NCBI GenBank assembly: GCA_017979445.1
Contig: CM030706.1
Location: forward strand, 23,639,884-23,703,883
Direction of reading: 5' to 3'
Length of the DNA: 64,000 nt
Source of the DNA: Akebia trifoliata
Lineage: Eukaryota > Streptophyta > Magnoliopsida > Ranunculales > Lardizabalaceae
Shown: piece by piece, positions 2,951 through 62,556 of the stretch
Numbering within the stretch: position 1 is the first letter of the stretch
How the letters are laid out: each line of letters begins with the position of its first letter
Position numbers and translations under genes: made by a program
Notes under the pieces: generated by a model
Seen by the model: the letters and a program-made list of their open reading frames with translations, nothing else
Databases searched by the model: none
What the model was told of the DNA's origin: nothing

Positions 2951-3417
2951 AAAACTCTAAAAGAAACCCTAATCAAACCCTAATGCTTCTAAAAAATTTT
3001 ATAAATAGGAGCCTCCACACCCTATTTTCGTATAAAAGAAAAAATCCTAAGAAAAGTAGGTGAAGAAGCCTCCACAACCTCTCCAAAACCCTAATTTTGG
3101 AGTCCCAACTCCTTACCTAACATCCCTGCTTCGATTTTAGCCTAAAAAATACCCAGAAACCTTTTAAAAACACCCTAAAATTCACAATAAATTCAAAGCA
3201 CCCAGATCCAAGAAGGAGATACCTTACCTCGGAGATCAGAAATCAGATCTGGAGACAGAACGAAGTAAGGAGTACGGTACAAGGAGCATTTTCACCAGAT
3301 CTGAGGGAATAGAACCTTTGCGGATCGAAAGTAAGATTTTTATTATTATTTTTATCTAGGTTTTGTCATTAGCGATGTAGTTATATTTTGGATAAGTAGA
3401 GACCGGCGTTGGCCGGG

Positions 3418-3446
3418 GGGGTTGGTGCCTAACACATTCCAACCCC
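3418..3446 (+). other. Loop-conserved LTR hairpin, copy 1
   Basis: Stem GGGGTTGG (3418-3425) pairs with CCAACCCC (3439-3446) around the 13-nt loop TGCCTAACACATT. It lies about 420 bp after the TATA box and about 160 bp before the LTR end. One loop base differs from the consensus. Confidence 0.8.
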
Positions 3447-3985
3447 GTAATATGATCCCCGGATTCAGTTTTTCTGTAATAGATTAGTTTTTTATCCGTT
3501 TTAGAGTTGGTTTGGTTCCTAGACCATAATAACTAGGTGGCGACTCCCAAACCTCAAGGGTCAAAAGCGGATCCGCGCACCCCGCGGATCGAGGGCGCTT
3601 TCACTACCCAGACTTAATTCTCACTAGAATGTTTTGTAAAAACGTTTTAATATTGTTATCCCAACCTTCATTCAGCAATAATTTTAGATTTACAAAATAC
3701 AATCCAAACTTGTATCGATGATATCCAAGGCTCCCGATAACGAAATTGAGTGAACTCAGATTCTAAACTAATCTACTCGATGAGATTTACGTTTTATTAA
3801 TAGGTGCCCAGACTTAATTCTTACTAAAATATTTTGTAAAAATGTTTTAACATTGCTATCCCAACCTTCATCATTCTATCATTTTCATATGTCAATTTGA
3901 ATATTTCATTATTTTGGGGTCATCAAAAAGTGACCCTTAATTGGACAAAAATACAATACCCAAAATCATCCACAATCAAGTCACA

Positions 3986-4097: not shown

Positions 4098-4115
4098 TCC
4101 CCAGTGGAGTCGTCA
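4098..4115 (-). other. Primer binding site (tRNA-Arg type)
   Basis: The minus strand reads TGACGACTCCACTGGGGA one base after the LTR end. It matches the 3' end of a plant tRNA-Arg plus CCA with two mismatches, and differs by one base from the site at 18344-18361. Confidence 0.8.
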
Positions 4116-4116
4116 T

Positions 4117-5815
4117 TGAAAGCGCGCACGATCGGCAAGGGTGTCGGATCCTCTTTTGACCTTTGAGGTTTGGGAGTCGCTGCCTAGTTATTACGGTTTA
4201 TGAACCAAATAATGACTCTAAAAGGTAAATAATATTAATCTACGAAAAAAATACGGGTCCGGGATCCACATTACGGGGTTGGAAGGTGTTAGGCACCAAC
4301 CCCGCCCGACAAACACCGATTTCTACTAATTCCCAAATAAAACTACATTGCTAAAAAGACCTAAGTAATAAAAATAAAAAATAAAAATCTTTACCTTTAC
4401 GAGTGCAACGATTTTGTTCCCTCAGATTTGATAGAATAGTTCCTTGTATAGCACTCCTCACTTCGTTCTGTCACCGGATTAGCTTCAGATCTCCAAGATG
4501 AGGTACTTTTTTCTTAGATCTGAACTTTATGACTTTTTATCAATTTTTGGGTGAGCTTCTAAGTATTTTTTGAGCTAAAGTTGGGGTATGGATGTTAGGT
4601 AAAGAGTTAGAACTTCAAAATTAGAGTTTATGGGAGGCTAGGGAAGTTTTTTGACCTATTTTTTCTAGGGTTTATTTTTTCATATGAAAATAGGTTGTAG
4701 GGCCCCTATTTATAGATTTTTTTACGTGCTTGTTTTGATAGAGTTAATGTTTAATTATAATTCTTTTAGAGAGAGTTATTTTTTAATTATAATTATTTTA
4801 GGTAGAGTTATGTTTCAAATAAAATTTTTTTAGATAGAGTTATTATTTAATTAGGATTGTTTTAAATAGAGTTATTATTTAATTAGGATTTTTTTAAATA
4901 AGGTTATTGTTTAATTAGAATTCTATTGACTTTAAGATTTTGACTTTAGTCTTATTTGATTGACTTTAAGATTGACTTTAGTCTTACTTAATTGACTTTA
5001 AGATTTTAACTTTAGTTTTACTTGATTGAGTTTAATTTTTTGGAGGACCCCCTTTTATTATATCATTAATTTTTTGGGCCCGCAAATGGAGGGGTCCTTT
5101 AATAAATATCTGGGCAACCATCAACAATTTTGCCTGAGAGCCTAATTGATCGATTTTTTTGGTTCAAAATTTTAAATTAATTTTATTAATGTTTCACTTT
5201 ACATTATTTAATATTTTATTTATTAATTTCAGAATTTAAATTTTTTTTAATTGAAAAATTATCGTTTTGCCCCTAAAAAGAACTTTTGCGTTTCAAGTCA
5301 GTTTTTGATGTTCCAGGATGTTTTAGCATCGATTTTTTGTAAGGAATTCAATGGAAATATTGATTTGTGTCATTTATAAAAAAATTTGTGCGAAATGATT
5401 GTGAACTTTATGAGGGGCATTTTCGTAATTTTATCAAATTTTGTGAAAATTGGTGAAATGATTTATTTGATTTCACTTTATTGTTTTATGTATTTGAATG
5501 GATTTTCCTAAGCATAATGTATGGTCTAGGATTGTTTTGAGGTTAGGCTTATTTTGATAATTTGATCATTTTTTAGTGATTTTTATCGTAAAGTTTTTTT
5601 TTGTCTGAAAAATGATGATTTCTATATTTTTTGGGTTATATTTCCTAGCGTAGTGTGATTTCTATAGTTTTGTCAATTCGAGATACCTCATCCGGATTTC
5701 TGAAACATATCTGGTAACAAAATAAAGCATTGGAATAATCATCCATTATTAGGAACCGTTGCAATCGGGTTGATGAGTTGATTAATCAGGCAAGTACAAA
5801 AATGGGGTGTCTATA
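4117..5815 (-). mobile_element. 5' LTR of the left Tat/Ogre-type element
   Basis: Minus-strand LTR from (mutated) TATAGACACCCC at 5815 to GCGCTTTCA at 4117, adjoining the primer site. It has a TATAAATA box (4707-4714 reversed), the same U3 subrepeats and the loop-conserved hairpin (4274-4304). It is clearly related to the LTRs at 2042, 16603, 32210 and 41013 but more diverged from them than they are from each other near the U5 end. Confidence 0.88.
4274..4304 (-). other. Loop-conserved LTR hairpin, copy 2
   Basis: In LTR sense, stem CGGGGTTGG/CCAACCCCG (9 bp) closes the consensus loop TGCCTAACACCTT (13 nt). Confidence 0.85.
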
Positions 5816-14474: not shown

Positions 14475-16396
14475 TGTAGACACCCGAATTTGAGCGGGCC
14501 CTCGACGCAAAATACTCAAAAAAATCAAAAAATTGGAATGGGCCACCCAAGCCCAAACCTACAAAAACCCAATACATTTTCCATTAATAAATGTCCGAGG
14601 CCACTCACGTGGCCCATGGACCCGCACACCTCACTACTCTCGTACATCCTTAAAACCAACAAACAACCTAAAACCTACCCAATCTACTACTAAAGCCCAA
14701 AGTCCAAGTCCACTACCATTATTATTCAATCCCCTAACCAATTACCCACCTAAGCCCAAACAACAACCTAAAACCCTACCCAATCTACTACTAAAGCCCA
14801 AAGCCCAATCCACTACCCAAATCCAATCCAACCCATCATCATCACATCAAACCAATCACCAAGAGATGACACATGTCATCATCTCCTTCCACCTCCCTCA
14901 TCTAATCAACTCAACCCATAACCCTACCCTAACCTAACCTATTCCCCATCCTCTCATCATCAACCACCAATACCACAACCCATACCCTACACACCCTAAC
15001 CTATTCCCCATCCTCTCATCATCAACAACCAACAACTCAACCCATACCCTACACACCCTAACCTATTCCCCATCCTCTCATCATCAACAACCAACAACAT
15101 AAACCCATACCCTATACACCCTAACCTATCCCCCATTCTTTAACAACCCACATCATAACCTATATCTCCCACACATCAAACCATCACTTTCCCTTAAAAT
15201 ACTCCCACAAAATCACCACAACCCATACCTCCCACCATCACCCCCACACTCTTCTCTCTAATCAACCAACCACCATCACCAATCAACCAATCTCTTCATC
15301 TCTCCATTTGCCACATGTCATCATCCCTTCAATCCTCTCAAAATCAAATCAATCACTACCCATCCCCCCAAATCAAACACCTTACCTCTTCAACCATCTC
15401 AACACTCCTTCTCCAAACAACTCCCTTACACCACCATTCCTCCCATCAACCATCACTCATCTCACCCCACCAAACACTCTACCCAAATGGATTTGGGTAA
15501 GATCCAAACCATTTGTGTTAAAACACAACCCATTTCCCTCATTACAAAATTACCCTCATTTTCATCTCAAATTTCACACTCTTTCTCTCTAAAACCCATG
15601 CCATTATCCACTATTCTCATCCCTCACCCCATTATACCCTTAAAATGCCTCCCAACTTCTATAAAAACCCCTCCATTCTTCTCTTACAACAACTAATGAA
15701 AAATTAAGCAAAATACCTCAAAAATATCACAATTCACCTCAACTCAACTCTCCATTCTCAACCCTCTACTCTTTCTCTACCTCATAACCACCATCAATTC
15801 TCAACTCATCTTACCATTCTCAAATCTCAACCTTCTCTCAAGTAAATCAAGGAAGCAAGTCCAAGTCCACTCAAAAGAAGAACATCAAGAAAAGCCTTGA
15901 AGATCAAGATTGGGACAAGGTGGGTTCGAAAAAGAACCATCCCCTCTAACCCCCTCATCTACTCTCCCTTTTCCCACACATTTGCACACACTACCATGGG
16001 TTAAATCACCAAAGGGCCCCTTCTCCATAAGGGTGCCCTTAATGATTGAAGCTAACATTAAAAGTCCCTCACACTTGAGGGCACACATCGAATTTTTCTT
16101 CGATTTTATTTATTTTTATTTTAAGAAAATCGAATCCGAGGTTACCACATTGTGTGGGTGGAGTAGGGTGCCTAACACCTTCCCTACTCCACAAATGGAC
16201 CCCCTTACCTTGAATCAAAGGTTGGGCCACGTGCATTATCCAACGAGAGTCATCAACATGTCAAAATGCCATGTTTTTCAACGAAAAACAATTTCGGGTG
16301 ACCATTCACACCCCTTTTCCAATTTGAATGGTGGGGACTCCAAAACACCCCAAAGTGGAGGGATGTTTGAAGAATGTTTAAAATCCCATGTCCACA
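14475..16396 (+). mobile_element. Solo LTR of a Tat-lineage Ty3 element with strong strand asymmetry (1922 bp)
   Basis: Starts TGTAGACACCCG and ends CATGTCCACA. The flanking 5-mers are gcagt (14470-14474) and gcagg (16397-16401), a 4/5 match expected of an old target duplication. TATAAAAA is at 15660-15667 and the loop-conserved hairpin at 16158-16192. From about 14640 to 15880 the plus strand is C-rich and almost lacks G. The many overlapping open frames here reflect that composition (few TAG/TGA possible) rather than genes. Confidence 0.82.
16158..16192 (+). other. Loop-conserved LTR hairpin, copy 3 (different stem)
   Basis: Stem GTGGAGTAGGG pairs perfectly with CCCTACTCCAC (11 bp) around the consensus 13-nt loop TGCCTAACACCTT. 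The stem shares only the GG next to the loop with copies 1, 2, 4 and 5. Confidence 0.9.
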
Positions 16397-16602: not shown

Positions 16603-17731
16603 TGTAGACACCCCATTTTTGCATCCGCCTGATTAATCAACTCGTCAACCCGATCGCAATGATTCCTAATGATGGATGTGTATTCCATTACTTTATTTTG
16701 TTACCAGATGTGTTTCAGAAATCCAGATGAGGTATCTCGAACTGACAAAACCTTAGAAACCAAGCTACGCTAGGAAAATAAGATCCCAGAAATATAGAAA
16801 TCATCATCTTGTAAACAAAAAGAAGCTTTACGATAAAAATCATGAAAAATTGACCAAATTATCAAGATACCCCTAACCTCAAAACAACCCTAGAGCCTAC
16901 GTTACGCTTAGGAAAACTCTCTCAAACACATGAAATAACAAATCGAAACCAAATAAATCATTTCACCAATTTTCCCAAAATTCGACAAAATTACGAAAAT
17001 GACCCTCATAAAGTTCACAACCATTTCACACAAAAAATTTCATAAATAACAAAAACTAATATTTCCATTGAATTCCTTACGAAAAATTGATTCTAAAACA
17101 TCCTAGAACATTAAAAATCGACTTAAAACGTGAAAAGTCCTCTCCGGGGGCAAAACGGTAATTTCATAATTTTCATAATTAAAAATTACGAAATTAAAAA
17201 ATAAAATATTAAATAATTAAAGTGAAACATTGATGAAATTAATTTAAAATTTTGAATTAAAAAATTGATCAATCGGGGGCTTTCAAGTAAAATTGTTGAG
17301 GGTTCGTGAGATATTTCTTTAAGGACCCCTCCATTTGGGGGTCCAAAGAATTAAAGAAATAATGGAGGGGGGTTCTCCAAAAATTAAAAGTAAATCAAGC
17401 AAGACTGAGGTCAAGGTATTAAAGTCAATCAAGTGAGACTAAAGTCAAAATTAAAGTCAATTAAGCAAGACTAAAGTCAAGATATTAAAAGTCAATCAAT
17501 TAAGACTAAAGTCAAAACATTAAAAGTCAATCAAATAAGACCAAAAGTCATAATAGAGTTCTAATTAAATAATAACTCAATCAAATAGAGTTCTAATTAA
17601 AAACAATTCTACCTAAAATAATTCTAATTAAAACACAATTCTACCTAAAACAAGTCTAACTAAAACACAACTCTAATTAAAAGAACTCTAATTAAATACT
17701 AACTCTATCCAAATCAACTCCTAAAAAAATC

Positions 17732-17739
17732 TATAAATA
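17732..17739 (+). promoter_or_regulatory. LTR TATA box (5' LTR)
   Basis: TATAAATA, in the same context (CTATAAATAGAGG) as in the 3' LTR. Expected to drive genomic RNA transcription, with the start about 30 bp downstream. Confidence 0.75.
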
Positions 17740-18152
17740 GAGGTGCTCACACCCTATTTTCGTATCATATCATAAACCCTAAGAGAAGTAGGTCTAAAAG
17801 CTCTCCTAGCCCCCCATAAACCCTAGTTTTGGAGCCCCAACTCCTTATCTAACATCCCTCCTTCAATTTTAGTCTAGAAAACACCTAAAATCTCTCCAAA
17901 AACACCTCCAAATCCGCAAAAAACTTGAAGAGTTTAGATCCAAAAGCAAGGAGATACCTTGATCTCGGAGATCCGAAATCAAATCCGGAGACAGAACGAA
18001 GCAAGGGAGTACAGTACAAGGAGCTCTTTTTGTCAAATCTGAGGGAGGAAATCCTTGCTATCGGAAAGGTATGAAATTTTTATTTTTATTTTTATCTAGG
18101 TTTTTAGTAATGTGATATATTTGGGAAGTTAGTAGAGACCGGCTTTGGCCGG

Positions 18153-18185
18153 ACGGGGTTGGTATCTAACACCTTCCAACCCCGT
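18153..18185 (+). other. Loop-conserved LTR hairpin, copy 4
   Basis: Stem ACGGGGTTGG/CCAACCCCGT (10 bp) around TATCTAACACCTT, which differs from the consensus at two loop bases. A smaller hairpin, CCGGC TTTG GCCGG, lies just upstream. Confidence 0.85.
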
Positions 18186-18343
18186 AACATGATCCCCGAA
18201 TTCAGATTTTTTAATGGTAGATTATTCTTTTTATCCATGTTAGAGTCAGTTTGGTTCCTAGACCTTAACAACTAGGTGGCGACTCCTAAACCTCAAGGGT
18301 CAAAAGTGGATCCGCGCACCCCGCGGATCGAGGGCGCTTTCAG

Positions 18344-18361
18344 TGGCGACTCCACTGGGGA
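18344..18361 (+). other. Primer binding site (tRNA-Arg)
   Basis: TGGCGACTCCACTGGGGA, one base after the LTR. It is complementary to the 3' end of plant tRNA-Arg (ending ...CCCCAGCGGAGTCGCCA) with one mismatch. Confidence 0.9.
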
Positions 18362-21300
18362 CATTGAGGATCAAATTTGAAAAACCCCAAGTAGGGGAGC
18401 GTTGTTAAAAGTGGCTAGATTGTTTTTATTTATTATTTTTTTTTTAGTTTGATTAGCTGGTTATTTTATCAATTTGTTTTTATTCCGGTTCGATTATTGC
18501 GTATGTGTTGGACTTTATATTTGGCATATTGTTGTGTGATTCGATCAAGCATTATTTATTATGTTTTATATCCAATTGAAGGTTGTTTACGGTAATTCTA
18601 AATGATGCAAAACTCCAAAAGGTTGAGGTTATTAATGGATTAATGGTGATTGAAGTGGAGATCGCCGATTTTTTTCTTCTTTTTAGGCACGCGTTGGTTA
18701 TGTTTAAATGTTTTTTTTTTAAATAAAAATAAAAAAAATCTTTCGATTAATTTTCGTAGGTGTGTGGTAGTTTTTTTATTTATTTTGGTTTTTATTTTTA
18801 TTTTTTATTATTGTGATTGTCTTGCTTTGATAGAAGAACTGTGCTGTCCTTTGACAGCAAGGGAGATTATAAAAAAAGAAGAATTTTTTTTTTTTTGGAG
18901 TGTGTTGGCGACAGCCAGGGTAATTGTAGTGGGTGCGTTAAGTAAAAAAAAAGAAAAGGTTTTTTACTCTTAAAACCCTTTTACTTTTAAAAGAGATTTT
19001 TCTCTTCTCTTCGTTCTCAACCGAGCCAGATTAGAGAGAATGGTTGAAACCTAGCCGATCGGCTGTGATTGTGTACGGCTGTGTTTGATAGAGCTTTGAT
19101 CGATTGCTGATCTCTGAAAGGTACCATGCACCTTCGATGATTGAGCATGAAGCTCCAAGTCGATGGCTTCTCCATTGATTCGAACTTCGTCTTCTCAACG
19201 AGAACCCACTGGTTCTAATCAGAAATCGATCGACTTACTCTCTCAAGCCTTATCGATTTGAGTTCTATTAACTTCACACCCTCTGGCTACAAGAATCTTC
19301 GATCAATCGAGAGAACATGAGAGTTTTCTGCCGAAGGAAACATGTGTGGTATCATAAGTCTCAGCGTCTTTTAAAATTAAAAAAAATCTGCAATGTCGTT
19401 TCCATGAGAGATTTTGTTGGTTTCTAACGATTTTCAAAGCTTTTAGAGGTTCGATTCAAGCTTTGCTTGAGCTTTCTCTGTGATTTTTATAATAAAAAAA
19501 AAAAAAACAAAATCCATCTGTTCTGCGTTTGGATTATGAGACATGTTCTTTCTGCTCGTTCTGATCTGGCAGAAGAAACTTGCTTTTTTATGTTCGATCT
19601 GCTACCAGCTGTTGCTCTAGTAAAATTTCTAATATGATTGTATCGCAAACAATGAAGTTTCGTGAGTATGTAATCACGGCTAGAGAGCCATTCTATGGAC
19701 GGTTACCAGCACGGATTTTTTTTCATTGATTATCTCTTTAAAAAAAAAAACTTTTGGATTTCGATTCTGGGATTGTTGTAACGATGCTGATTGTGAATTA
19801 TGGTGATAGCGAATTTGACCGGCAATTGTTGAATAAGTCAAAAGATTGTGAAAGATTGATTTCCTGTGTTCCAAAGTATAATGGTTTATTTTATTTTATT
19901 CTATTATTCTTTCATAAAAAATCGAAAATATAAAAGGACTAAAAGGATAAAAATAATGGATTGATGAACAGACTTGAATTCGATTTGAGGAAGTTTATTC
20001 GTTTACTTATTGGGTTTATTTTGTTGACACACCAATTGCCACCCCGGGCATTATGTTGAGGTTCTGTGTTTAATCCCAAACCCGTGATTGGTATGTCAAT
20101 AAAATTGTGATTGGACGGTGTTTTTGATTGGTCTTTAGTAGTAGGTGTTTTTTAGTTTTTTAATTTGTTAAATAAAGGTCTTTGTTTTTGTTTGAAAAAA
20201 TAAAAATCATGTATTGAAAAAAAAAAGAGATGCATCGCCCCATACTTCAACTACCATATCCTATTAGCGGCTCAATCTTGAACTATTTTAGATTACTCAA
20301 AATAACCTTTGGTTGGACTATAAAAATTACAAAATCATGCTTATTGCCACGATCGGATTTAATTCATTATCATATGCCATATTTATTAATTTACCATGAT
20401 CTTGCTTGAAATACATGATTGATGTTGATCGTAATGTTAATGTGCTTATGTGATGGGAATAATGTGATCTTAATTGAATATTCATATGATTTGAATGATT
20501 TTGGTTTTGATTAAATGTATGATGGTATGGTCAGGGCCATGGGCCCATTTGTTTGAAAAACCCCCGGGCACACCCCACCCTGTTTCGCACACACCACATG
20601 CACGTTTACTGCTTTACTCACTTACACGTCCCATTTAGCCAACGTGGCACTAGTGCGTGGCCCAGTCTCTTCGGAGATGCGACGTCATTCATGAAACCCA
20701 CAACTCCAGTCACGTACCTTAGGGTATATCAAACTGGGGGCATCGATACCATCTGATCAGGTGATTCTGAGAAGTATATTGATGCACCCAGGCTGGAGCG
20801 ACCTGAGCCTTTGACCTATTGTAAGCCACATAGTCACATGTCTCGATTGCCAATGTAGTATTAGTACGTGGTCGGTCCCCTCGTGGGATGCCAAACCATT
20901 TATGAAAGCTATAACTCTTGACTCGTACCCGTAGGTATAAAAGATAATCTAAGTATATCAATTGCACTTCTTGGTCAAAATCGGTGCCTAAGCAAGATCT
21001 TGTCCCGCTGTATCCTACTGTACGAGGGAGATAGACTACGTCTATTCTAGACGAGAGGTATTTAAGTGGGCCCTTGCTCAGCATTGTGCGCCACCTCTCA
21101 ACTGGAGATCAAACTGGCTGTTTTTGGCTTCAGAGAAGTGAATTGAGGTTTTAGATTATTACCTATACGGTATATTAAACCAAGTCACCACGTATCGAAA
21201 GGTATATAGGTGTGCTTGGGCAAGGGTGGCCAGATGAAAATGCATTGCACGTAGTAAGCTTAGAGTCTAGAAACCTTCCCATAGGTCACGACTCGAACTT

Positions 21301-21740
21301 ATCGTGGGTGTTCCCGGGTTGTTTATTGAATGAATGCATGTGATTGATGAATGTATGTGGTGATGTGAATGATGAGATCAAAGTGTATGATTGTCCTCAA
21401 GGATCAAAAAATTTTATTTTTGAAAATTAAAATGGGTGCACCGACCCAGTAAAGAATCCATTCTTTTACAATAATGACCCAGTCCATCCCGATCCAACAA
21501 TCATGATGGACCGGGCCAGTTAAATCAAAATGGAAATCGAATTTTCAAAAAAGAAAAAGAAAATATTTTTCAAAAAAGATTATTTTCCAAAAGAAGTGTT
21601 CTTTAGAAGAAACATTTTCCATAAAATATATTTTCTAGAAAATATTTTCCATAAGAATAAAATTTTCCAAAAGAAAATAAATTGATCTTTTACATGGACC
21701 ATTGGAAGAGTACTAAAATACCCTTTTATGTCAAATCAGG
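18362..21740 (+). other. Long leader of the full-length element
   Basis: About 3.4 kb between primer site and ORF1. It contains T/A-rich low complexity (18420-18960, 19490-19500, 19740-19750), unassigned sequence (19000-20500), the conserved block 20530-21320, and degenerate ATTTTCCAAAAGAA-like repeats at 21540-21680. The short open frames here, including one at 18650-18973, look like compositional artefacts. The origin of 19000-19900 is unclear; captured host sequence is possible but unsupported. Confidence 0.7.
20530..21320 (+). repeat. Conserved Ogre leader block with an internal diverged duplication
   Basis: It matches the reverse of 300-1060. Within it, about 20600-20735 and about 20830-20950 are a diverged direct duplication: CCAACGTGGCACTAGTGCGTGG against CCAATGTAGTATTAGTACGTGG, and ACGTACCTTAGGGTATA against TCGTACCCGTAGGTATA. 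Conservation in an untranslated leader suggests an RNA or DNA-level role, possibly packaging or translation initiation; that is inference. Confidence 0.75.
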
Positions 21741-22922
21741 ATGTTAGCCGTCGGCGATGACCCAATCGATCAGTTAGTCAAAACAACCGTCATAGGAATG
21801 CACCCTGTAGAGAAGATCAATTTTGGGAGATTCATGTTGAGGAGTGCTCTTTACTTCCATGAGTTTGAGATAGACTGGAACCTCTTACATGCTATGGCTA
21901 AGCGATGGAACCCCTACCTTCACATATTCCACATTGGGCGTATACACTTGTGCCCTACTCACGAGGATTTTTGTGGTATTATGGGGATATCCACTTCAGG
22001 ACCTCTAGTCAGGCCCTCATTGAAGATCGGATATTCTGGTGCCCTCGCCACAGGATTGAATATTTCCAAAGAAGAAGCCAAGGCCCTAATCCATAATGGG
22101 AGACTGGATTTAGTACCTTTACTGGGCCCGTACCGCTCCCGCAGTCATCCTATCAATGTAAAACCCGAAGCCTGGAGAGCCACTAGAGACTATCGATTAT
22201 GCTAAGGAATCCTAGCCCAATACATACTGACCTCTAATAGTGATGGCCAAACTATCCCTGAGTCCTTCATAGATATAGCCTCTCAACTCTCGAGAAAAGC
22301 CAACCCAGTACCCCTCATCTTAGTTGAAACTTTCTCAGGTCTAGATGCCATAAAAAATGGTGAGCAGGAAAGCTTCAAATGAAGCCCCTACTTACTCTAT
22401 ATGTGACTTTGTAATCATCTTAAGATTGTAGATGTTCCCTCAAACCTCGAATATGGGCCAGAACACTTTTCCAAGAGAAACCTGTTAGTACATCACAACT
22501 TAGTCAAAGCCTGGAGTAAATGGTTAAACTCTCGCTTAGCTCGTCATATCGGTTTAAGATGTCCTTGGTAGATGACTGATCCTCCCATTCTAAGAACCAA
22601 AGGATCCTACTATGTCCGTCTGATCGATTTAGAAGAAACATCCTTTTACCATCCTAATTTGATCCCAGAACAGTATGATGTACCCATAGAGTTATCCTTA
22701 TCTCAACCCAAAGCTTTCTTTTCCCCCGAGCCTTTGACTGAAAAGTTAGTACACCTCATTGAGAAAGCTTGGAACAAGCGCACCTTGGGGTATCCAGACG
22801 GACCAGCAGAATTCAGAGAGCCAGTTGTTAGAGCTAAGAGGGTCAAGCCTGACAGCAATCCTGATGACCATCAAGACAAAGCCAAGCGTCCATGTAAAAA
22901 TAGTTCAAAACAAATTTGTTGA
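21741..22922 (+). pseudogene. Ogre ORF1, plant-mobile-domain-like protein, broken
   Basis: One frame of 394 codons runs from ATG at 21741 to the stop at 22920-22922, interrupted by four in-frame stops at 22203, 22380, 22404 and 22569. The residues between stops read continuously (for example FEIDWNLLHAMAKRWNPY near codon 40 and ILRTKGSYYVRLIDLEETS in the C-terminal third). An extra ORF upstream of gag is a feature of Ogre elements; its product resembles the plant mobile domain of aminotransferase-like proteins, and its role is not established. The stop-only damage with a retained frame suggests fairly recent decay. Confidence 0.75.
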
Positions 22923-23112
22923 AAGATGTTTTAATAAGAACGTATTGTTTATCATTTTCAATAAAACTATCTTTCTTTTTGAATAAATATTTATTTCCTT
23001 TTCAAATACTCATTGTGTGAATGGATTAATTAATGGATTGGTGCACGAACCTCAATAAAATGATTCTTAAAATGTTATCAGGGGGTAATACTGAAATTGA
23101 CTAAATCTACCT

Positions 23113-24486
23113 TTGATAGGGTCATATAGGATTATCATTGCGTCCAAACTCGAGTGTCCACCTCCTAGTTGGAGTCGTAAGTCCAGTCGGTTAGAAAGAA
23201 CCACAGTACCAAGTCAACAAGCAGAGATTGCTTCAGAATCTGAGCTCACAGAGATCCGTAAGATCTTGGCAGCCTTTGCCAATGATATCAGCAACATAAA
23301 AGGCAAAGTGGAAATGTTAGAACAGACATCGGAATCGATGGAAATTCCATTAGACCCAAAGGGGAAAAAGGTTGAAGAGAAACGTCCACGTGAAGTCTTC
23401 GAGCTCGACAGAGACGAAGAATATGTTGATGAAAATCTGGCGTTATCTAATAGAATGTCTCAATTGGAGTCAGCGATGAAGAGTATAAAGGGTATTGATG
23501 AAATTGCAGCAGGCATTGAAGCTTTGAATCGCATCCCTAGAATCTATTTGCCAGAAAATTTTGTGATGCCTGAAATGGACAAGTTCAGTGGGACAGGGTG
23601 TGCGAAAACACATCTTAAGGTGTATGTTACCAACATGCGCACTATGGGGCTCAGCGACGAACAGATGACATTGTTATTCCAAAGAACTCTATCGGGATCA
23701 GCACTATGTTGGTTAATGTCTCAAGATCCAGTTACTGTGGGTACATGGGAAAGCATGTCAAAGGCCTTCTGGCATCAATATAAGTACAGTACCGAGATTG
23801 AGACTTCAAGAAGGGATCTGGAAGTAACTAAACAGAAAAACGGGGAGACCTTCACTGATTTCATTGGTCGCTGGAGGGCCAAGGCTTCTCAAATGTGGGA
23901 TAAACCTTCGAAGAAGGAACAAGTAGCAATTATCCTAAAGAACCTCTCTCAAGGATATGCTCAACACCTAGTGGCCCAATACCTCCCTACTTTTGAATCC
24001 TTGTTGCAAGCTGGGAGCCAACTCGAGGACACATTTGCCTCTAGGATCCTTTCTAACCCCTCAGATAATAAGCCTAAGAAATCATATGTTCCCAAACCCA
24101 ACATCAACCATACTTACATCGACAATACCTCAGTTACCTCAGCTCAACCCCCAACCCAGACTAATAACCAGGTTCACCCAAGTCAACCTCGGACTCTGCG
24201 TCAGTTCACCAATCTAGGGATGAGTCTCACTGTAGCGCTTCACAAATTGATGAAAAAAAGGCTTCTTACCCCTATCCAACCTCGACCTTTACCTAATCCC
24301 TTGCCAGCTGGACACAATGCTAACGTATTCTGCGAGTTCCATCAAAATCCTGGCCATCACACGGATCGATGTATCACCTTGCGCCATGCCATCCAAAACC
24401 TTATTGACAACAAAAAAGGTCACCATCCTAGCCCACCAAATGTCACCACTAACCACTACCTGCTTATCAACCTCCACCAACCCTGA
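23113..24486 (+). CDS. gag: gag polyprotein of the Ogre/Tat element
   Basis: Open for 457 codons, but the frame begins at a non-ATG codon, so the true start is uncertain (an ATG occurs near codon 66). A coiled-coil-like N-terminal third is followed by a retrotransposon gag core (about residues 145-310, with CWLMSQDP and GETFTDFIGRWRAKA). A zinc knuckle of the form CX2HX4HX4C follows at residues 407-420 (C407, H410, H415, C420), a variant of the usual CCHC. Gag forms the particle and binds genomic RNA. It ends at a stop and the pol frame does not follow directly. Confidence 0.88.
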   Translation: MIGSYRIIIASKLECPPPSWSRKSSRLERTTVPSQQAEIASESELTEIRKILAAFANDISNIKGKVEMLEQTSESMEIPLDPKGKKVEEKRPREVFELDRDEEYVDENLALSNRMSQLESAMKSIKGIDEIAAGIEALNRIPRIYLPENFVMPEMDKFSGTGCAKTHLKVYVTNMRTMGLSDEQMTLLFQRTLSGSALCWLMSQDPVTVGTWESMSKAFWHQYKYSTEIETSRRDLEVTKQKNGETFTDFIGRWRAKASQMWDKPSKKEQVAIILKNLSQGYAQHLVAQYLPTFESLLQAGSQLEDTFASRILSNPSDNKPKKSYVPKPNINHTYIDNTSVTSAQPPTQTNNQVHPSQPRTLRQFTNLGMSLTVALHKLMKKRLLTPIQPRPLPNPLPAGHNANVFCEFHQNPGHHTDRCITLRHAIQNLIDNKKGHHPSPPNVTTNHYLLINLHQP

Positions 24487-24920
24487 ACATGGTTTCTCAC
24501 ACCCCATTACCATTTGACCCTGTTTCTCTCATCCATCCAATCCAGGTTAAACCGCCCAATTACCCCCTTGCGGGATAGCCTTCACTGATGAGGTTTTCAC
24601 TACGAATTATGAACCGTTTGATCTAACCTCGGATGATACCTATTGTTTATCCCCGCCTCGTTATGATAGTCCCTCGCGTTCACTAGTTACCTGTTGGCCC
24701 AAATGAATCTGAAAAACCTTGAAACCTTTGACAGCCGAAGATCCATACTGTTGTTAACTGAGGAAGATGAGCTTTTCCCCCTTTCCTGTGATGAAGTTAG
24801 ACATATGACTCGAGGGGAAGAGTTTTTAAGCCACAAGAACTCTGTGTTGAAAATCCTACAGCCCTGGCAAGAAAAGAAGGAGAAGATCCCACTAAGGAAA
24901 GCATCGAAGAGGATAACTCC
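24487..24920 (+). pseudogene. Gag-pol junction, frame-shifted coding remnant
   Basis: Coding-like pieces in two frames bridge gag and protease, such as AFTDEVFTTNYEPFDLTSDD near 24580-24640 and LTEEDELFPLSCDEVRHMT near 24755-24810. At least one frameshift separates them. No catalytic motif is present. Confidence 0.6.
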
Positions 24921-26651
24921 GTGATCAAACAGTTGAAAAAATCATGGGCCAATATCTCAGTATGGGGTTTACTCATGGCTTCCACTGCTCATAGGGAAGC
25001 TGTTCTCAAAGCACTTAACACAGCCCAAGTTTTCCTTGAAACTTCTCCAGATCAGCTGGCCAGTATAGTGGGGGCAACTTACGTGGAGAATATCCTATCC
25101 TTCTCGGACTCAGATCTCTCAAAAGAAGGGGCAAGCCATACTAAGCCGTTGCACATTACAGTTGACTGTAACGGAATGAGGGTACCTTTGGTTTTGATTG
25201 ATAACGGGAGTGCACTGAACGTTTGCCCGCTGAAAACGGCTACTTGCCTCGGGTTTGAGGCTGAAGATCTCAAACCTATTAATCAAGGTGTTAGAGCCTA
25301 TGATAACACCAAGAGGGATGTACTGGGAATTCTGCACCTTCGACTGTCCACATGCATAGTTAAATTTCCTGTGGAATTTCAGGTTATTGATATCCAGTCT
25401 TCTTTCAATTTACTATTAGGGAGACCATGGTTACACCAGATCAAAGCCATCCCTTCTACACTACACCAGAAGGTCAAATTTATCAAGGATGGGCTGGTAA
25501 TTACTCTTCATGGAGATGCTGAAATTGTAGGGATCATAAATAATACTGAAGCTAAGGATAAGCCGTTGCTTGAGATTCAACCAGAACAACAGGGAGTAGA
25601 GCTCAGTGGGTTCGAATTTGAAAAGATATGCTCAGTCCAATGGGATCAAGCCAAGAAAGAGTATTTTCCAATGGAAAATACCTCTAATTGCTGCATGACC
25701 AATATATTCAAGAAAATGAGATTCTTCCTTGGTATGGGCCTAGGTCGCAAGCAGCAAGGTATTAAAGAGGCACCAATGATTAAAGAGGCCATCAGCACAT
25801 TTGGACTAGGATATAAGCCTACTAAGGAAGATTGGGCCCAATACTGGAAAACAAAACGGGATAAGGCCATTGCTAAAAGGCAAAGGTACACCACAGATCT
25901 CATTAAAATGAAGTCATATCGAAAGACCCTCAATGGTTACTTTGTGAAAGAAGGAGAAGACTTCCGCTACTGTGGGTTCCCAGAGCCGTTCATTGATCAC
26001 ATCACAGGTACTCGTCTGCCGGGGTTTGAAATCTTCTTTGGCATGGAATGGCCTGAAAAGGAAGCAACCACAAAAGTTAAAGAGAAAAAAGTTGAAGACT
26101 GGCAACTCGATCTGGACTCCCTCAACATCGATCAGCTATTCATTGAAGACCATAGTGTTTTAGTGTTGTCGAATGAGAAAGGGATCCCAAATCCTCAGTC
26201 TGTAATCAAACCTGCTGTTGGGGTTTTGTCAAATTATCATGTAATCAGTCATGTGTTGCATGTCAAGGCTGGGTTTGTCGATCCCATTAGTCCTGTTCAG
26301 TCTGACATGCTAGTTGAGTCATTTATTCCAGTTGAGTCATTTATTTCTACTGAGTCTGTTGCTTCTAGGGAGTCTGTTTTTCCTACTGAGTCGAGTGAGT
26401 CTATCAAGTCTGCAATGAGTCCTGTTACCCCATCTCTTTTTAATGAAATGAAAGAAATTTTTGATTACCCCGAGCGCAATAATAATTCAACTAATAATCT
26501 GACTTCGGAGGGAGAATCTTCTGACGAAGAACCTCCCCTTGAAATAATCAAATTACTTAAACAAGAAGAGGAACGTCAGGCTCAACCTCTAATAGAGGAA
26601 GTAGAGGTTTTTAACCTCGGAACAAAAGAAAGTCCTCAAGAATTAGTATAG
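24921..26651 (+). CDS. pro: Protease-containing pol segment with a G-patch-like motif
   Basis: 576 open codons beginning at a GTG, so this is a segment of a larger pol rather than a proper start. Aspartic protease: VLIDNGSALNV with D94 at the catalytic site (DNG form, usual in Tat/Ogre) and the second conserved motif FNLLLGRPWLH about residues 163-173. Around residues 267-300 is a glycine-rich G-patch-like stretch (GMGLGRKQQGI, then FGLGY). The C-terminal part has an ES-rich imperfect repeat (about residues 470-500). A one-base deletion near 26640 ends the frame just before the reverse transcriptase. In some Ogre elements an intron lies in this pro-RT interval; I see no clear need for one here. 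Confidence 0.85.
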   Translation: MIKQLKKSWANISVWGLLMASTAHREAVLKALNTAQVFLETSPDQLASIVGATYVENILSFSDSDLSKEGASHTKPLHITVDCNGMRVPLVLIDNGSALNVCPLKTATCLGFEAEDLKPINQGVRAYDNTKRDVLGILHLRLSTCIVKFPVEFQVIDIQSSFNLLLGRPWLHQIKAIPSTLHQKVKFIKDGLVITLHGDAEIVGIINNTEAKDKPLLEIQPEQQGVELSGFEFEKICSVQWDQAKKEYFPMENTSNCCMTNIFKKMRFFLGMGLGRKQQGIKEAPMIKEAISTFGLGYKPTKEDWAQYWKTKRDKAIAKRQRYTTDLIKMKSYRKTLNGYFVKEGEDFRYCGFPEPFIDHITGTRLPGFEIFFGMEWPEKEATTKVKEKKVEDWQLDLDSLNIDQLFIEDHSVLVLSNEKGIPNPQSVIKPAVGVLSNYHVISHVLHVKAGFVDPISPVQSDMLVESFIPVESFISTESVASRESVFPTESSESIKSAMSPVTPSLFNEMKEIFDYPERNNNSTNNLTSEGESSDEEPPLEIIKLLKQEEERQAQPLIEEVEVFNLGTKESPQELV

Positions 26652-27640: not shown

Positions 27641-28144
27641 TCTTTCAAACCCACCTATTTTGGTCCACCTACACCGGGTGAACCACTTCTTCTTTATCTG
27701 TCAGTCACAGAAGAAAAAGCTATGGGATGCATGCTTGCACAATATGACAAAGATACTCGCAAAGAGAGGGCCATCTACTACATCAGCAAGAAGATGTTAG
27801 AATATGAACGAAAATATTCATCCTTGGAGAAAACTTGCTTAGCACTGGTATGGGCTACTCAGAGACTCCGGCATTATATGCTGTCTCATTCAATTATCCT
27901 ATTATCTCGGATGGATCCTCTCAAGTATCTTTTGAGAGAAACGGCGTTAACAGGGAGAACCGCGCGATGGTTATTGTTGCTATCAGAATTTGACATCACG
28001 CATGTTACGCAGAAATCCATCAAGGGGAGAGCTATAGCAGAATACTTGGCCGATCACCCTGTAGTAGAAGGAATAAGGCCTGTCGATCAATTCCCAGATG
28101 AGAACATCTTGCACGTTAAAGAAGAACCGCAGAACCAAACATGA
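27641..28144 (+). pseudogene. Retroelement RNase H domain (first)
   Basis: After a frameshift near 27670 the frame 27608-28144 gives LLLYLSVTEEKAMGCMLAQ, YYISKKMLEYERKYSSLEK, CLALVWATQRLRHYML and GRTARWLLLLSEFDI. This is the connection/RNase H region typical of Ty3 elements. It ends at a TGA (28142) just before the second RNase H. Confidence 0.85.
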
Positions 28145-32196: not shown

Positions 32197-32205
32197 AAAG
32201 AAGGG
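32197..32205 (+). other. Polypurine tract
   Basis: AAAGAAGGG followed by CATC and then the 3' LTR start. It would prime plus-strand DNA synthesis. Confidence 0.85.
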
Positions 32206-33345: not shown

Positions 33346-33759
33346 GAGGTGCTCACACTCTATTTTCGTATCATATCATAAACCCTAAGAGAAGTAGGTC
33401 TAAAAGCTCTCCTAACCCCCCATAAACCCTAGTTTTGGAGCCCCAACTCCTTACCCAACATCCCCCCTTCAATTTTAGTCTAGAAAACACCTAAAATCTC
33501 TCCAAAAACACCCTCAAATCCGTAACAAACTTGAAGAGTTTAGATCCAAAAGTAAGGAGATACCTTGATCTCGGAGATCCGAAATCAAATCCGGAGACAG
33601 AACGAAGCAAGGGAGTACAGTACAAGGAGCTCTTTTTGTCAAATCTGAGGGAGCAAATCCTTGCTATCGGAAAGGTATGAAATTTTTATTTTTGTTTTTA
33701 TCTAGGTTTTTAGTAATGTGATATATTTGGGAAGTTAGTAGAGACCGGCTTTGGTTGGG

Positions 33760-33790
33760 CGGGGTTGGTGCCTAACACCTTCCAACCCCG
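33760..33790 (+). other. Loop-conserved LTR hairpin, copy 5
   Basis: Stem CGGGGTTGG/CCAACCCCG (9 bp) around the consensus loop TGCCTAACACCTT. Confidence 0.85.
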
Positions 33791-33950
33791 TAACATGAAC
33801 TCCGAATTCAGATTTTTTTAATGGTAGATTAGTTCTTTTTATCCATGTTAGAGTCAGTTTGGTTCCTAGACCTTAACAACTAGGTAACGACTCCTAAACC
33901 TCAAGGGTCAAAAGCGGATCCGCGCACCCCGCGGATCGAGGGCGCCTTCA

Positions 33951-35991: not shown

Positions 35992-38203
35992 TGTTGACTT
36001 GTAGTGACTCACATATCTAAAAGATAAGGAGAAATGGTCTACTTAGAAATCTAAAGTAAGGAGGTTCGATTGAGGGATAAGGAAGGTGTTAGGCACCTTA
36101 TCCCTCCTATCCTAAGATGGTTACTAATAAATGACCAAATGGTGTGATTAGGAAACTCTCTTTTTTATTTTGAAAGTAAGAAAAACTATAGAAAAAAAAG
36201 TAAAAGGAAAAAAAAAACTATAGTTTAGTTTTAGAAACTAAGAAACTAAATTAATAAGCAAGCAAAAATAGAAATGTTACTTATTAGAATTTTTTATGAG
36301 GTTAGGATTTTGTTAGGAATCCACATGGATTTCACCTTCTTGGATTCTAAAGCTCTTTCCGAAGGTTATATACTCACTTGAAAGCATCTTTTTATTAGTT
36401 TAGTCTTTTGGAGGTGTCTATGAGTTGGAGACTACCATAAAAAGACTAGAGACCTTATGCATGAGATTTTGTCCATTTTTAGACTATTTTTGTTAGCTCT
36501 AAAGGTTGAATATAGGTCCATAGAGACTTATTTTCTTACTTGTAGCTATTTTAGAAATGAGTGTGTGCAAAGTCTATACATGTGATGGACTTAAAAAGAG
36601 AAAATTACCTTCAATGAGGGATTACTCTCTAGTTCTTAAGTCATTAAAAAAGAAAAAGGAAAATCTCTATTCTATGAATTTAAATTTGTAAGAAAAGTAA
36701 AGAACAACTAATCTGAATATTTAAACATTGTAGAAAGTAAATAAACAATTATTATAATGCTCTTGAGAGCTTATTGAGGACTCATAAGAGGAGATTATCT
36801 TTAGAAAATTTTACTTACTACCCCCAAACCTCACTAAAATAAACTAAGGTGTACATTGCTACAATCAAAGAAAGTATAAAAATAAACTTGCTTAAATGTA
36901 AAAAATGAGAATAGATAGAGGAGGGAGGTTTAGATAGGGATTACATAAAAAAGATTAGGACTAAGCCCCACCTTGGTTTCTTCTTCTTCTTTTGCTTGGT
37001 TAGAACTTCTTAAGTGTTTGGGAATGGATTTTGACAGAGTTTTGGCAGCCTAAAAAGATTTAAAAAGAGACTTGGGTTGAATTTTTGATCAATGGAGCTT
37101 CTTCTTCTTCTCTTTTGCCTTGAATGAGAGTTCTATTTATAAAATTTTGGGAGACCCTTGGGGATAAACTTGTCATAAATCATAAGGTTCTTAATATTTT
37201 CAATAAAACCTCTAGAGAAAATTCAAATTACCTCTCCTCTCCTTGGACTTGATGGTCTTTCACTCACTTATAGGTCTCACCAATCATGATGATCAAGAGG
37301 ATGGGATTGTAAGAAGTCATAGTTTCTAAAGAATTCTTTGAGGATGGTCGAAAAGTCCTACGTCATTGACTTTGGGTCAAATCCTAGAGAACTAGTTTAC
37401 ATGGCATGTAAATATGAATTGGGATTTTGGATATTAATGTCATCTAGCCCAACTAATTATCTAATAACATAGGGTTAAGAATGTCTATGCTCATAATTTT
37501 TAGAGAATTCTATGGGTTGAAAAAGGTTGTCAAAACCTCTTGAACTTGGTTTAATTACATTGACACTTCTAAGATTGATGATAGACTTTGAGGACATAAG
37601 GGTAATCTACCTTGGTTTAGTTCTAACAATATGGGATTAGGGTAGTAATTACAGTTATGTTGGGACCAATTTAACCAAGGTTCTTTGTTAGAAGAATATG
37701 AAAACTACTTGGAAACCATGACGGTGGTTTATTGAAGAATTAAAGGATAGGCAAAAGAATAAAATGGAGGAACTTTTTAGGGGAAAATTCATTAATAGAT
37801 TAAAGGGTAATTATCCCTAACCAAGTTTGAACACACATAGGTTTGTAACAAACCCAAGGCCTGAACAAAATTTATGCTTGGTCATGAGTCATCCTTGGAA
37901 CAAGCAAAAGTTGTTCTTGGTCGTGGGTTAACCTTAACCAGGCAAAGAGTAAACCTGGCCAAGATTGAGGTACAACTAGGCTTAAATTTAATCTTGGCCA
38001 AGGGTGAGGTATGATTAAGCTTGGCCAAGGGTTAGGTATGGCCATGCTTAAATCAATAATTTTTCAGAAATAGTCTTTAGGCATTGTGGTTGCTTGAAAA
38101 TGATATTTTTGAACCCTCCTAAAAATTTTCTTGGGTTAAGACCCATTCTCGGAAGGTTTTTGGTGCTCTCGAGTTCTGCATAGGCAAAAATGGGGTGTTT
38201 ACA
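35992..38203 (-). mobile_element. Solo LTR of a Tat-lineage element with 9-bp flanking repeats (2212 bp)
   Basis: The minus strand starts TGTAAACACCCCATTTTTGCC at 38203 and ends GTCAACA at 35992. A TATAAATA box lies at 37134-37141 (reversed) and the loop-conserved hairpin at 36072-36106. The sequence agtatattt flanks it exactly on both sides (35983-35991 and 38204-38212). Ty3 elements normally make 5-bp duplications, so either the boundary is off by a few bases and the AT-rich match is partly chance, or this copy was inserted unusually. No coding region inside. Confidence 0.7.
36072..36106 (-). other. Loop-conserved LTR hairpin, copy 6 (different stem)
   Basis: In LTR sense and in plus-strand sense the stem is GAGGGATAAGG/CCTTATCCCTC (11 perfect pairs). 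The loop in sense is the consensus TGCCTAACACCTT. Confidence 0.9.
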
Positions 38204-41012: not shown

Positions 41013-42508
41013 TGTAGACACCCCATTTTTGCACTCGCCTAATTAATCAACTCATCAATCCGATTGCGATGGTTTCCAATGATGGATGGTTATTCTAATG
41101 CTCTGTTTGTTATCAGATATGTTTCAGAAATTCGGTTGAGATATCTCAAGCAAACAAAACTGTAGAAACCACGCTATGCTAGGAAAATGTGCCCTAAAAA
41201 CATATAAATCATCATTTTTCAGACAAAAAAAGCTTCACAATAAAAGTTACTAAAAAATAACCAAATTACCGAAATACCCTTAACATCAAAACATCCTTAG
41301 AGCCTACATCACGCTTAGAAAAATCCTTTTGAACACATAAAATAATAAATTGAAATCAAATAAGTCATTTCGTCAATTTTCACCAAATTTGACAAAATTA
41401 TGAAAATGCCCCTAATAAAGTTCACGATCATTTGATGCGAAAAAATTCATAAGTGACACAAACCGATAATCCCATTGAATTCCTTACAAAAAATCGATTC
41501 CAAAACATCCCAGAGCATTGAAAAACGACTTCTCAACACAAAAGTCCTCTTTAGGGGTAAAACGATAATTTTTCAATTTTAACAATTTAAAATTTTGAAA
41601 AAAGTAATAATTAAATATTAATTAATCTACAGTGAAATCCTAATTAAAAATTTTTGAGTCAAGTCAATCAAATAAGACTTAAGTCAAGACCCTAATAAAG
41701 TTAATCAAGTAAGACTTAAGTCAAGACCCTAATAAAGTCAATCAAGTAAGACTTAAGTCAAAACCCTAATATAAATAAACCTAGTCAATCTAATACGACC
41801 AAAGTCAAACCTTAACTCTAACAGAATTTTAATCAAGCACTAACTCTATCTAAAATAATTCTAATCAAATATTAATTCTATCTAAAAGAATTCTAATTAA
41901 ACACTAACTCTATCTAAAAAACAAAAAAAAAATCTATAAATAGGGACCTCTACAACCTATTTTCGTAGGTCAAAAAGCTTCCCTAGCCTCCTCCAAACCC
42001 TAATTTTGAAGCCCTAACTCCTTACCTAACATCCATACCCCAATCTTAGCTCAAAAAACACCCAAAAACCCTTAAAAAATACCCAGAAATCCATAATCAA
42101 ATCAGAAAGATTCAGATATAAGAATGAGGTACTTCGTCTTAGAGATCTGAAGAGAATCCGGTGACAGAACGAAGCAAGGAATATTACTCAAGGGGATCTC
42201 TCCGCCAGCTTTGAGAGAATCACCGTTGCGATCATCCAGGTAAATATTTTTTATTTTTTATTTAGGTTTTTTTAACAATGTAGTCTTCTTGGGAAATAGT
42301 AGAGACCGGCGTTTATCGGGCAGGGTTAGTGCCTAATACCTTCCAACCCTGTAACTTGATCCCCAGACTTTATTTTTTTTGATAAATTAATTGTTTTATC
42401 CTTTTAGAGTCGATACTCGGTTCATAGACCGTAATAACTAGGTGGCGACTCCTAAACCTCGAAAATCAAAAGTGGATCCGCGCACCCCACGGATCGAGGG
42501 CACTTTCA
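41013..42508 (+). mobile_element. Solo LTR of the Tat/Ogre family (1496 bp)
   Basis: Starts TGTAGACACCCC and ends GGCACTTTCA, flanked by a perfect duplication atact (41008-41012 and 42509-42513). TATAAATA at 41935-41942, U3 subrepeats at 41650-41820 and the hairpin at 42321-42351. It is inserted in the chromovirus LTR in opposite orientation. Confidence 0.95.
42321..42351 (+). other. Loop-conserved LTR hairpin, copy 7
   Basis: CAGGGTTAG pairs with CCAACCCTG with one A-C mismatch, around TGCCTAATACCTT (one loop change). A G-C at the outer part in other copies is A-T here, and pairing is kept. Confidence 0.75.
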
Positions 42509-60766: not shown

Positions 60767-60958
60767 TGTGTAGATACGTGGTTCTTGATTACGATGGCCA
60801 CATCTACTAAGGTTTGGAGTTGCCACCATTCATATTGTAAGTGAGTGTGAATGGTCACCCGATACACATGTTTTGAAAAATGTGTCATTCTTGGCATGTA
60901 ATGATTCACAATGGATCAGGTACCGATCAATCTCGAGATCAGGGTAAGCAGCTCGATT

Positions 60959-60993
60959 GGAGAAAAGGGAAGGTTTTAGGCACCCTTTTCTCC
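60959..60993 (-). other. Loop-conserved LTR hairpin, copy 8 (different stem)
   Basis: The stem is GGAGAAAAGGG/CCCTTTTCTCC (11 perfect pairs). The loop in LTR sense is TGCCTAAAACCTT, one change from consensus. Confidence 0.88.
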
Positions 60994-62556
60994 CCGCCAA
61001 ATGGTGGTAACCTCAAAGAACTCGATCATTTTGATTAGAAAAAAATAAAAAATAAAGTGCCACGTGTTATGCATTTGTACCCTAAATAGGGGTTTGATTT
61101 ATTTTATTTTATTTTTTTATAATTTCTTTTTTAATATTTATTGACTGATCCGTGCTTGAGACACGGATGGCTTGTGGATCCATTTCTTCCATATTTGAAA
61201 AACGGATAACCCTCTCGTTTCTTTCAATTGTTTTGAGGGCACGGATCCAACAAAATTTTCTTTATCCGTACTAGTGACATGGATAGGATCAACCGTGCCT
61301 CACCCGTACTAGTAACATGGACCAGTACGAATTTTAAATGCCTGAAGCCTGCGCGCCCTCTCATTTTTGGCTCTTCTTCGATTTTCTTCGGTTTCTTCTC
61401 TTTCTCGGGTGATTTCTCTTTGATTTCTTCGCCTTGGGCATTTGGTGGATTGGTTTGGAGGCTTTGGAGCGTGTGTTGCTTTCGGATGCTCGTGGAATCG
61501 ACTTAAAGTTTTGAGAAGTTTCTTGCATGAGTAGCTCCTAATCCTACTCATCATATCTCGTGCTATCTCTTTTCTTATTGTGAGCCTACTTACTTTCCTT
61601 CACCACAATAATGATGATAATGAAGGAATCTTAAAATGAGATAGCAAATCAATATATTAAAAAAAATGTGAATTGCTTTTCCCCACTCATTGATCTTCAT
61701 TGCATTCATTTCTTTTGTTGGATGTGGGTGTATGACTTGTTGATTTATGGAATTGGTGGGTGGTGCATTTGGGGGTGAGAACTTCCTAGGATGTTTGGGA
61801 ACTTGGGGTGTGGTGAAGGTGTGGGGCCTGATTTGGGAATTTTCGTGGAGAGATTTTAGCCGGAATTGGTGGTGGTTAAGGTGAGGATTTGAGTATGTTT
61901 GCTAGGACTCGAGAGATAGGGTGGTTTGGGACTAATTTTTAAATAGGAGAAAGGGTGGTGAAGGGATGGTTTAGAGTGGGCATTATGGGTGATTTCAGAG
62001 ACTGGATTAGGGGTAGTTTTGAGTGGTTAAGGGTTTGACATTGGGATTGTTTTAGGTAGGAGTTAGTGGTCTTGTTTTAGGGACTGGATTTGGTGAGATG
62101 GGAGTGGTTCAAGGACTGTTTAGTGGACTGAAATTAGAAATGTTTGACGTGGTCACAGGACTGTTTGGGGACTAGCTTAGGGGTGTTGGACTGGATTGAG
62201 TTGGGCTGGGTTGGACTGTTTGGATTGAATTGGAATTAGGAGGGGCTTAGGAAGTGGATTGGGTTGAGCTTTGGGGATTGTTTGGATGAGAAGTAGAATT
62301 GTTTTTAGGGACTAGATTTGAGGTGAGAGTTGGGATGGTTTAAGGACAGTTTGGGATGGGATTGGGTTGAGTTTTGGGGGATCGTTTTATGAGGATTGGC
62401 ATGTTTTAAGGGGTTTTTGTATGGTGGATGATTGACTAGTTTGGGTAAGAAGTAATGTTGTCTTTAGGGGCTATTAGGGTGAGGAGATTGGGTGGTAAGG
62501 GATTGTTTTGACAATTGTTTAGGTGACGATTCTGGAATGTTTGGGGGTGTGATGAG

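Follow-up and report, generated by a model that had tools for sequence, protein, structure and literature searches.

Retroviral leaders carry packaging and dimerisation hairpins in tandem between the promoter and the primer site, and in the retrotransposon Ty3 the second part of the primer site binds other arms of the primer tRNA. For Ty3, a member of the Ty3/gypsy group, the passages cited here describe a bipartite primer site for tRNA-iMet, with one part at either end of the RNA, and tie the 5' region to dimer formation (PMC11381356). In plants, conserved packaging and dimerisation signals are named for the Ty1/copia element BARE, and in the Sireviruses a step of reverse transcription is linked to an inverted repeat around the polypurine tract, where the 3' LTR begins (cited passages of PMC3735527 and PMC2829016, respectively). 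The cis-acting RNA signals of plant LTR retrotransposons are little known, and such elements make up much of plant genomes.

We report a structured domain in the leader of Tat-type retrotransposons, found in a 64-kb stretch of DNA (the window, meaning the whole stretch analysed) and across the host genome. From 5' to 3' it comprises a small hairpin (H1), a larger hairpin (H2), a GAGTC motif, a pseudoknot-like fold and an internal copy of the primer site, after which comes the true primer-binding site. An earlier note on this DNA had taken the hairpin alone as the element; the hairpin stands, but the description was incomplete, as H1, the fold and the internal primer-site copy were not listed. 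We show here the anatomy of the domain, the pairing of H1 and H2 kept through the replacement of their stems and the sameness of the H2 loop and the internal copy across classes.

Tandem hairpins between promoter and primer site are common to this domain and to retroviral leaders; unlike the latter, the Tat domain has a fixed 13-nt loop that is not self-complementary, exchangeable stems and a folded second primer-site copy inside the LTR. With Ty3 it shares the Ty3/gypsy group and a tRNA-binding sequence in two places, whereas in Tat one 10-nt stretch that matches the 3' end of the tRNA is present twice, the copy being 58-68 nt away from the true site (for Ty3, cited passages of PMC11381356). 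BARE belongs to another superfamily and no similar structure is described in the passages cited (PMC3735527), while the Sirevirus feature is likewise an inverted repeat in plant elements but, in those cited passages, lies at the polypurine tract rather than in the leader. The main text of PMC11963269, on Retand, contains no hairpin or secondary structure, and that of PMC12218528 does not mention transposons. Literature searches gave no match to the loop letters, and the matches listed for the primer-site letters, as well as those for an internal or second primer site, were unrelated by title; the hairpin, the fold and the internal copy are not described in the literature searched, which holds few subscription papers. 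Structured retroelement leaders are a known kind, and the Tat domain and its layout appear undescribed. With thousands of copies that carry the same loop on unrelated, self-matching stems before a folded primer-site copy, it looks like an undescribed RNA control element. Its fixed loop on changing stems offers a defined target for probing and mutation. The domain can likewise serve to tag Tat elements, and those that depend on them, at the sequence level, and to ask if a second, folded primer site is in use in plant elements.

The H2 hairpin and its host element

Eight H2 hairpins lie in the window where the earlier note had placed them, at 3418..3446, 16158..16192, 18153..18185, 33760..33790 and 42321..42351 on the forward strand and at 4274..4304, 36072..36106 and 60959..60993 on the reverse. 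A covariance model of the hairpin (46 sequences) recovers the same eight and no ninth at E<=1, and Rfam gives 0 matches in the window at gathering score. All eight loops are 13 nt long, as had been claimed; four have the exact loop and the variants are TGCCTAACACATT (3426), TATCTAACACCTT (18163), TGCCTAATACCTT (42330) and TGCCTAAAACCTT (60970). The GG/CC closure attributed to every copy is present in seven but not at 42321, which has AG/CC, and this closing position is also the single stem mismatch that had been confined, rightly, to one copy. Replacement of the stem from type to type stands too, but there are more types than the four first proposed. The stem at 16158..16192 (loop 16169-16181, supported by the covariance model and by folding) is of type GTGGAGTAGGG/CCCTACTCCAC, that at 60959..60993 of type GGAGAAAAGGG and that at 36072..36106, which has no internal primer-site copy within 300 nt, of type GAGGGATAAGG.

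The copies at 18153..18185 and 33760..33790 lie in the 5' and 3' LTRs, respectively, of an element at ~16603-33951 whose two LTRs are 97% alike. The Tat clade (Ty3/gypsy, OTA, non-chromovirus) is marked by a second RNase H domain, aRH, in the cited passages of PMC6317226. This element, the one in the window to which the domain test was applied, has RVT_1 at 27145, RT_RNaseH at 27605, RVT_3 at 28145 and an integrase match, rve, at 29115 (24.8 bits, less than the 32.6 set as its cut-off); these four matches lie in separate open frames. It also has an open frame with a gag domain from 23101, ~4.7 kb past the LTR. It has the Tat layout, and the earlier Tat-type assignment is borne out by the second RNase H beside RT-RH and integrase and by a primer other than tRNA-Met. 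A tandem array with a 34-base unit occupies 31262-31984, between the integrase piece and the 3' LTR.

The primer site is 18 nt complementary to tRNA-Arg(ACG) genes in the same genome, and its two main variants, A and G, each have a matching tRNA-Arg(ACG) gene. In the window it is found at 18344..18361 on the forward strand and, with up to 2 mismatches, at 4098..4115 on the reverse. Elsewhere in the genome, primer sites are spaced by exactly 4298 bases, five in a row at G000:C1:7584830-7602039 and two at 11028310-11032625, which suggests tandem arrays of one element segment. At L181, L184 and L189 the primer-site complementarity (~23 nt) extends beyond the place of m1A58 in the primer tRNA, which would fit a reverse transcriptase that did not stop at the modified base; a similar extension is seen at L182 and L185.

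The TATA box of the 5' LTR lies at 17732..17737 (forward strand), 431 nt before the loop. The upstream TATA box reported for the hairpins is present as TATAAA at -395 to -509 from the loop in six of the eight window copies but not in the other two, where the loop at 36083 has only TATATAA at -277 and that at 60970 only TATAAA at -139. In the 30 loci less L083, L097 and L098 (27 in all), CTATAAA precedes the loop by 427-439 nt in 12/18 of class 1 and by 435-503 nt in 5/9 of class 2, with two more class 2 loci at 557 and 758 nt; the exact motif is absent from eight loci. Transcription begins ~30 nt past a TATA box, so that the hairpin should lie ~400 nt into the RNA. This spacing and the primer-anchored LTR ends described below agree with the position first proposed, ahead of the primer site in what is presumed to be the transcribed leader.

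Pairing of the H2 stem across the genome

Every comparison was made within one genome. The exact 13-mer loop occurs 18,021 times (8941+9080 on the two strands) in the 652.5-Mb host assembly, against 10 copies (8+2) of the reversed 13-mer, and its abundance is therefore not due to chance. Of 100 exact loops among the matches listed, taken regardless of their flanks and all from one contig, 83 have at least 8/9 stem positions paired and 92 at least 7/9, where 45 of 13,504 positions of equal spacing in the same loci reach 8/9; 830 of the 900 stem cells are paired, compared with 629±16 when the right arms are re-dealt among the loci. The loop thus does not occur equally often unpaired, the outcome that would have told against the earlier note: 17 of the 100 fall below 8/9, or 12 if one-base slips are allowed. 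The reverse approach, which kept the stem constant and allowed loops of 2 to 32 nt, found 6357 sites for stem CGGGGTTGG (control 1) and 755 for stem GGAGTAGGG (control 0), with a 13-nt loop in 50/50 and 49/50, respectively, among the matches listed, the exception having 12 nt.

A further sample, which presupposes neither loop nor stem, consists of LTR ends adjoining TGGCGACTCCNCTGGGGA, a form of the primer site that the genome contains 3425 times (control 0). It numbers 69, made up of 30 loci and 39 of 40 later regions (L139 dropped). H2 is present in 66 of these, with the exact loop in 51. The three ends without it are L158, apparently a decayed copy, L174, which has the exact loop with 6/9 pairs, and L083, an LTR of another kind (G000:C1 ~4312827) that has the tRNA-Arg primer site and neither the hairpin nor the internal primer-site copy. 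Matches to a 17-mer, 2 among viral contigs and 6 among genome contigs, were taken as chance; seven of the eight have no primer-site-like 9-mer in the stretch retrieved, and L103, also taken as chance, has one, 384 nt upstream. The primer-site pattern occurs 0 times in the viral contigs, and a fragment of RT-RNase H found no relative there.

For the covariation analysis that the earlier note had proposed, the arms of 114 distinct sites were aligned outward from the loop and compared with a null in which tree, left arm and number of changes per right-arm column are preserved. Paired cells number 953/1026 against 700±56 (maximum 877 in 500 runs), and changes from paired to paired that alter both sides on the same branch number 11 against a null mean of 2.4 (maximum 10); covariation of the H2 stem is significant on this tree-aware null. 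In 46 thinned sequences it measures 0.615 against 0.259±0.021, all nine pairs have changed on both sides and up to six pair types occur per position. In slid registers covariation is 0.13-0.38 and the cells paired drop from 84% to 63% or less, although a slide by +1 still has nine pairs with both sides changed. When all pairs of a first MAFFT alignment were put through an R-scape-like test, none fell below E=0.05, and the best (E=0.35) was not a proposed pair. That alignment split the 3' arm of H2 by a gap, and deep splits leave few independent changes; the test nonetheless failed. The arms aligned from the loop outward took the place of that alignment. The tree-aware covariation and the stems of the exact loops uphold the central proposal of selection for pairing in a structured RNA element.

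The register switch suggested at the same time did not hold, the inner GGTG/CACC helix showing no covariation and the lowest-energy folds of all eight window copies using the outer stem. Two of ten loci (L084 and L086) do form the inner pairs in their lowest-energy folds, as do two alignment folds, and the inner pairing is possible, though without evolutionary support. Single-sequence folding of the eight stretches of H1 and H2 gave energy z-scores from -4.04 to +0.03, so that not all are unusual; two of the eight are unremarkable (-0.86 and +0.03).

H1, the pseudoknot-like fold and the internal primer-site copy

H1 lies directly against H2 and has at least four of five pairs at 96 of 112 sites, the 114 sites less two without a usable layout. 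Among 56 distinct pairs of arms, 215/280 cells are paired, against 187±5 in shuffled sets (maximum 204 of 1000), and slid registers reach at most 47% paired compared with 76.8%. Folding places H1 in the window at 16145..16157 (CCACA/TGTGG) and 18139..18152 (CCGGC/GCCGG), where its covariation also applies, and at 33745..33758, 3403..3416 and 42306..42319 (four pairs), all on the forward strand, and at 4306..4319 (four pairs) and 60994..61007 (one mismatch) on the reverse. In some classes, but not in all, inspection by eye suggested a helix enclosing H1 and H2, for which no claim is made.

Downstream of the hairpin, GGTGGCGACTCC occurs with at most three mismatches at 108 of the 114 distinct sites. 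The final ten letters of this block are those with which the true primer site begins, and they are complementary to the 3'-terminal ten of the primer tRNA. The copy is still inside the LTR, 58-68 nt from the true site in the 29/30 loci that have it; among the primer-anchored LTR ends it is present in 67/69. In the window the internal copy stands on the forward strand at 3538..3547, 16332..16341 (1 mismatch), 18277..18286 (TGGCGACTCC), 33885..33894 (2 mismatches) and 42443..42452, and on the reverse at 60816..60825 (1 mismatch) and 4173..4182 (2 mismatches), where the preceding fold is degraded.

Immediately before the internal copy lies a fold resembling an H-type pseudoknot. In class 1 it combines the helices NGGT/ACCN and CCTAG/CTAGG, class 3 being alike with a shorter third loop, and in class 2 it consists of GGGTG/CACCC with letters of the loop pairing with TGAATGG. 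The window has the class 2 pairing at 16296..16331 and the class 1 pairing (first helix GGT/ACC, second CCTAG/CTAGG) at 18252..18276, and the fold is also found at 33860..33884, 3513..3537 and 42418..42442 (one mismatch in the second helix), all forward, and at 60826..60860 on the reverse strand. The geometry is found at 93 of 108 sites and is strong at 83, compared with 20 and 5 of 108 after shuffling; control windows from the same LTR pieces, some of which overlap the hairpins, gave 136/648 and 59/648, respectively. The outer pair of the first helix covaries in class 1, being CG in 24 and TA in 19 of 74 sequences. Inside class 1 the second helix shows no covariation (351/370 cells, shuffled 350.6); over the distinct arms of all classes 100/120 cells are paired against 80±5 (maximum 96), a between-class signal carried by two main states. 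GAGTC or GAGTT lies between H2 and the fold at 86/108 sites against 10.9 expected. Alignment folding of 18 and 8 distinct sequences, one set for each of the two classes, pairs GAGTC with GACTC in the internal copy both times; the potential partner in the 5' LTR lies at 18243..18247 on the forward strand.

How little else is held in common can be seen from L007 (class 1) and L014 (class 2), which share, from -60 to +230, only two collinear blocks of at least 7 nt, namely GGTGGCGACTCC and the loop together with the GG/CC that closes it. Some additional short blocks are common to other pairs of classes, for example AGAGTCA in L007 and L049. From this comparison, the sequence has been replaced nearly everywhere and the layout kept. 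Two observations concern individual LTR ends. In class 1 copies a further U5 hairpin, GATCCGCG/CGCGGATC, is seen (for example within 18287-18343), which is not in the class 2 copies folded. At L086 (G000:C1 ~5897063) three primer-site-like copies spaced 61 nt stand at the LTR end, a duplicated 61-nt unit that resembles what a strand transfer out of register, between the true primer site and its internal copy, would leave.

Proposed function and rival explanations

We regard H2, with moderate confidence, as the most prominent feature of a structured RNA domain that acts in cis in the Tat leader and would serve replication of the genomic RNA, most likely as a signal for packaging, for primer placement or for both; on present data the two cannot be separated. 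Since the letters and length of the loop are fixed on exchangeable stems, a partner acting in trans may read it, and the loop would then be a recognition site for a factor such as Gag in packaging. In the span that starts 480 nt upstream and runs to 1200 nt past the primer site, any one 6-mer complementary to the loop stands at a common place in at most 2/18 class 1 or 3/9 class 2 loci. With no conserved RNA partner in that span and only chance complementarity to the tRNA, a protein, Gag first, is the simplest candidate. The loop TGCCTAACACCTT has no self-complementary stretch of at least 4 nt, as a kissing-loop dimer would call for. Primer placement is suggested by the retention of the internal copy although two close sites invite mis-transfer, of which L086 looks like a case; the folded copy might govern where and when the tRNA primer sits, and GAGTC may compete with the tRNA 3' end. 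A more specific arrangement, which we put forward tentatively and consider rather improbable as a whole, is a two-site primer system in which a second docking site for tRNA-Arg in the LTR is gated by the pseudoknot and the anti-primer GAGTC and licensed by H1 and H2. If it were true, RNA folding would switch primer loading or strand transfer, with an architecture that outlasts the sequences of its helices.

A role in forming the RNA 3' end is unlikely, though it deserves a place among the alternatives: the domain, lying in R, would regulate polyadenylation, keeping the site silent near the 5' end and letting it act in the 3' LTR. Its position in the LTR downstream of the TATA box means that both RNA ends may carry it, and in class 1 the loop of the pseudoknot is rich in A (TAATAA), but such a role needs neither a fixed loop on exchangeable stems nor a 10-nt copy of the primer site. 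Of similarly low probability, and compatible with the replication domain as the explanation of H1 and H2, is that only these hairpins matter and the internal copy is a neutral relic of a shift in the LTR boundary. The duplicated unit of L086 is what mis-transfer in reverse transcription could give; against a relic are the presence of the copy in nearly all primer-anchored LTR ends (the 67/69 above) and its identity in classes with little other similarity nearby.

We think it improbable, more so than either of these, that the fold controls translation by pausing ribosomes, or recruiting them, within a long leader; the leader before gag is indeed long (the ~4.7 kb after the LTR), but the domain is upstream of the primer site and far from gag, and the primer-site copy would be left unexplained. 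A function at the DNA level, with the inverted repeat as a protein site or cruciform in the LTR, we hold to be quite improbable. It would suit an inverted repeat found in both LTRs of the window element, and A.C mismatches (35) in the stems are not much rarer than G.U (52), a weak strand-specific excess of G.U. Against it, the stem is exchangeable but the asymmetric loop fixed, the adjoining H1 and pseudoknot-like fold are likewise kept and the site lies ~430 nt downstream of the TATA box; the fold and, weakly, the G.U excess favour the RNA level. Boxes of the yeast elements Ty1 and Ty3 pair with the primer tRNA, but that the H2 loop does so is very improbable, as its TGCCT only partly matches AGGCG in the D arm region of tRNA-Arg, in five contiguous pairs, and by our own estimate about five such matches are expected by chance.

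A site resembling a splice donor (AG/GTAW) followed by a T-rich run was noted by eye ~80-90 nt before H2 in most of the class 1 copies printed, for example at 18060-18090. If this site is used, the spliced RNA could lose the domain.
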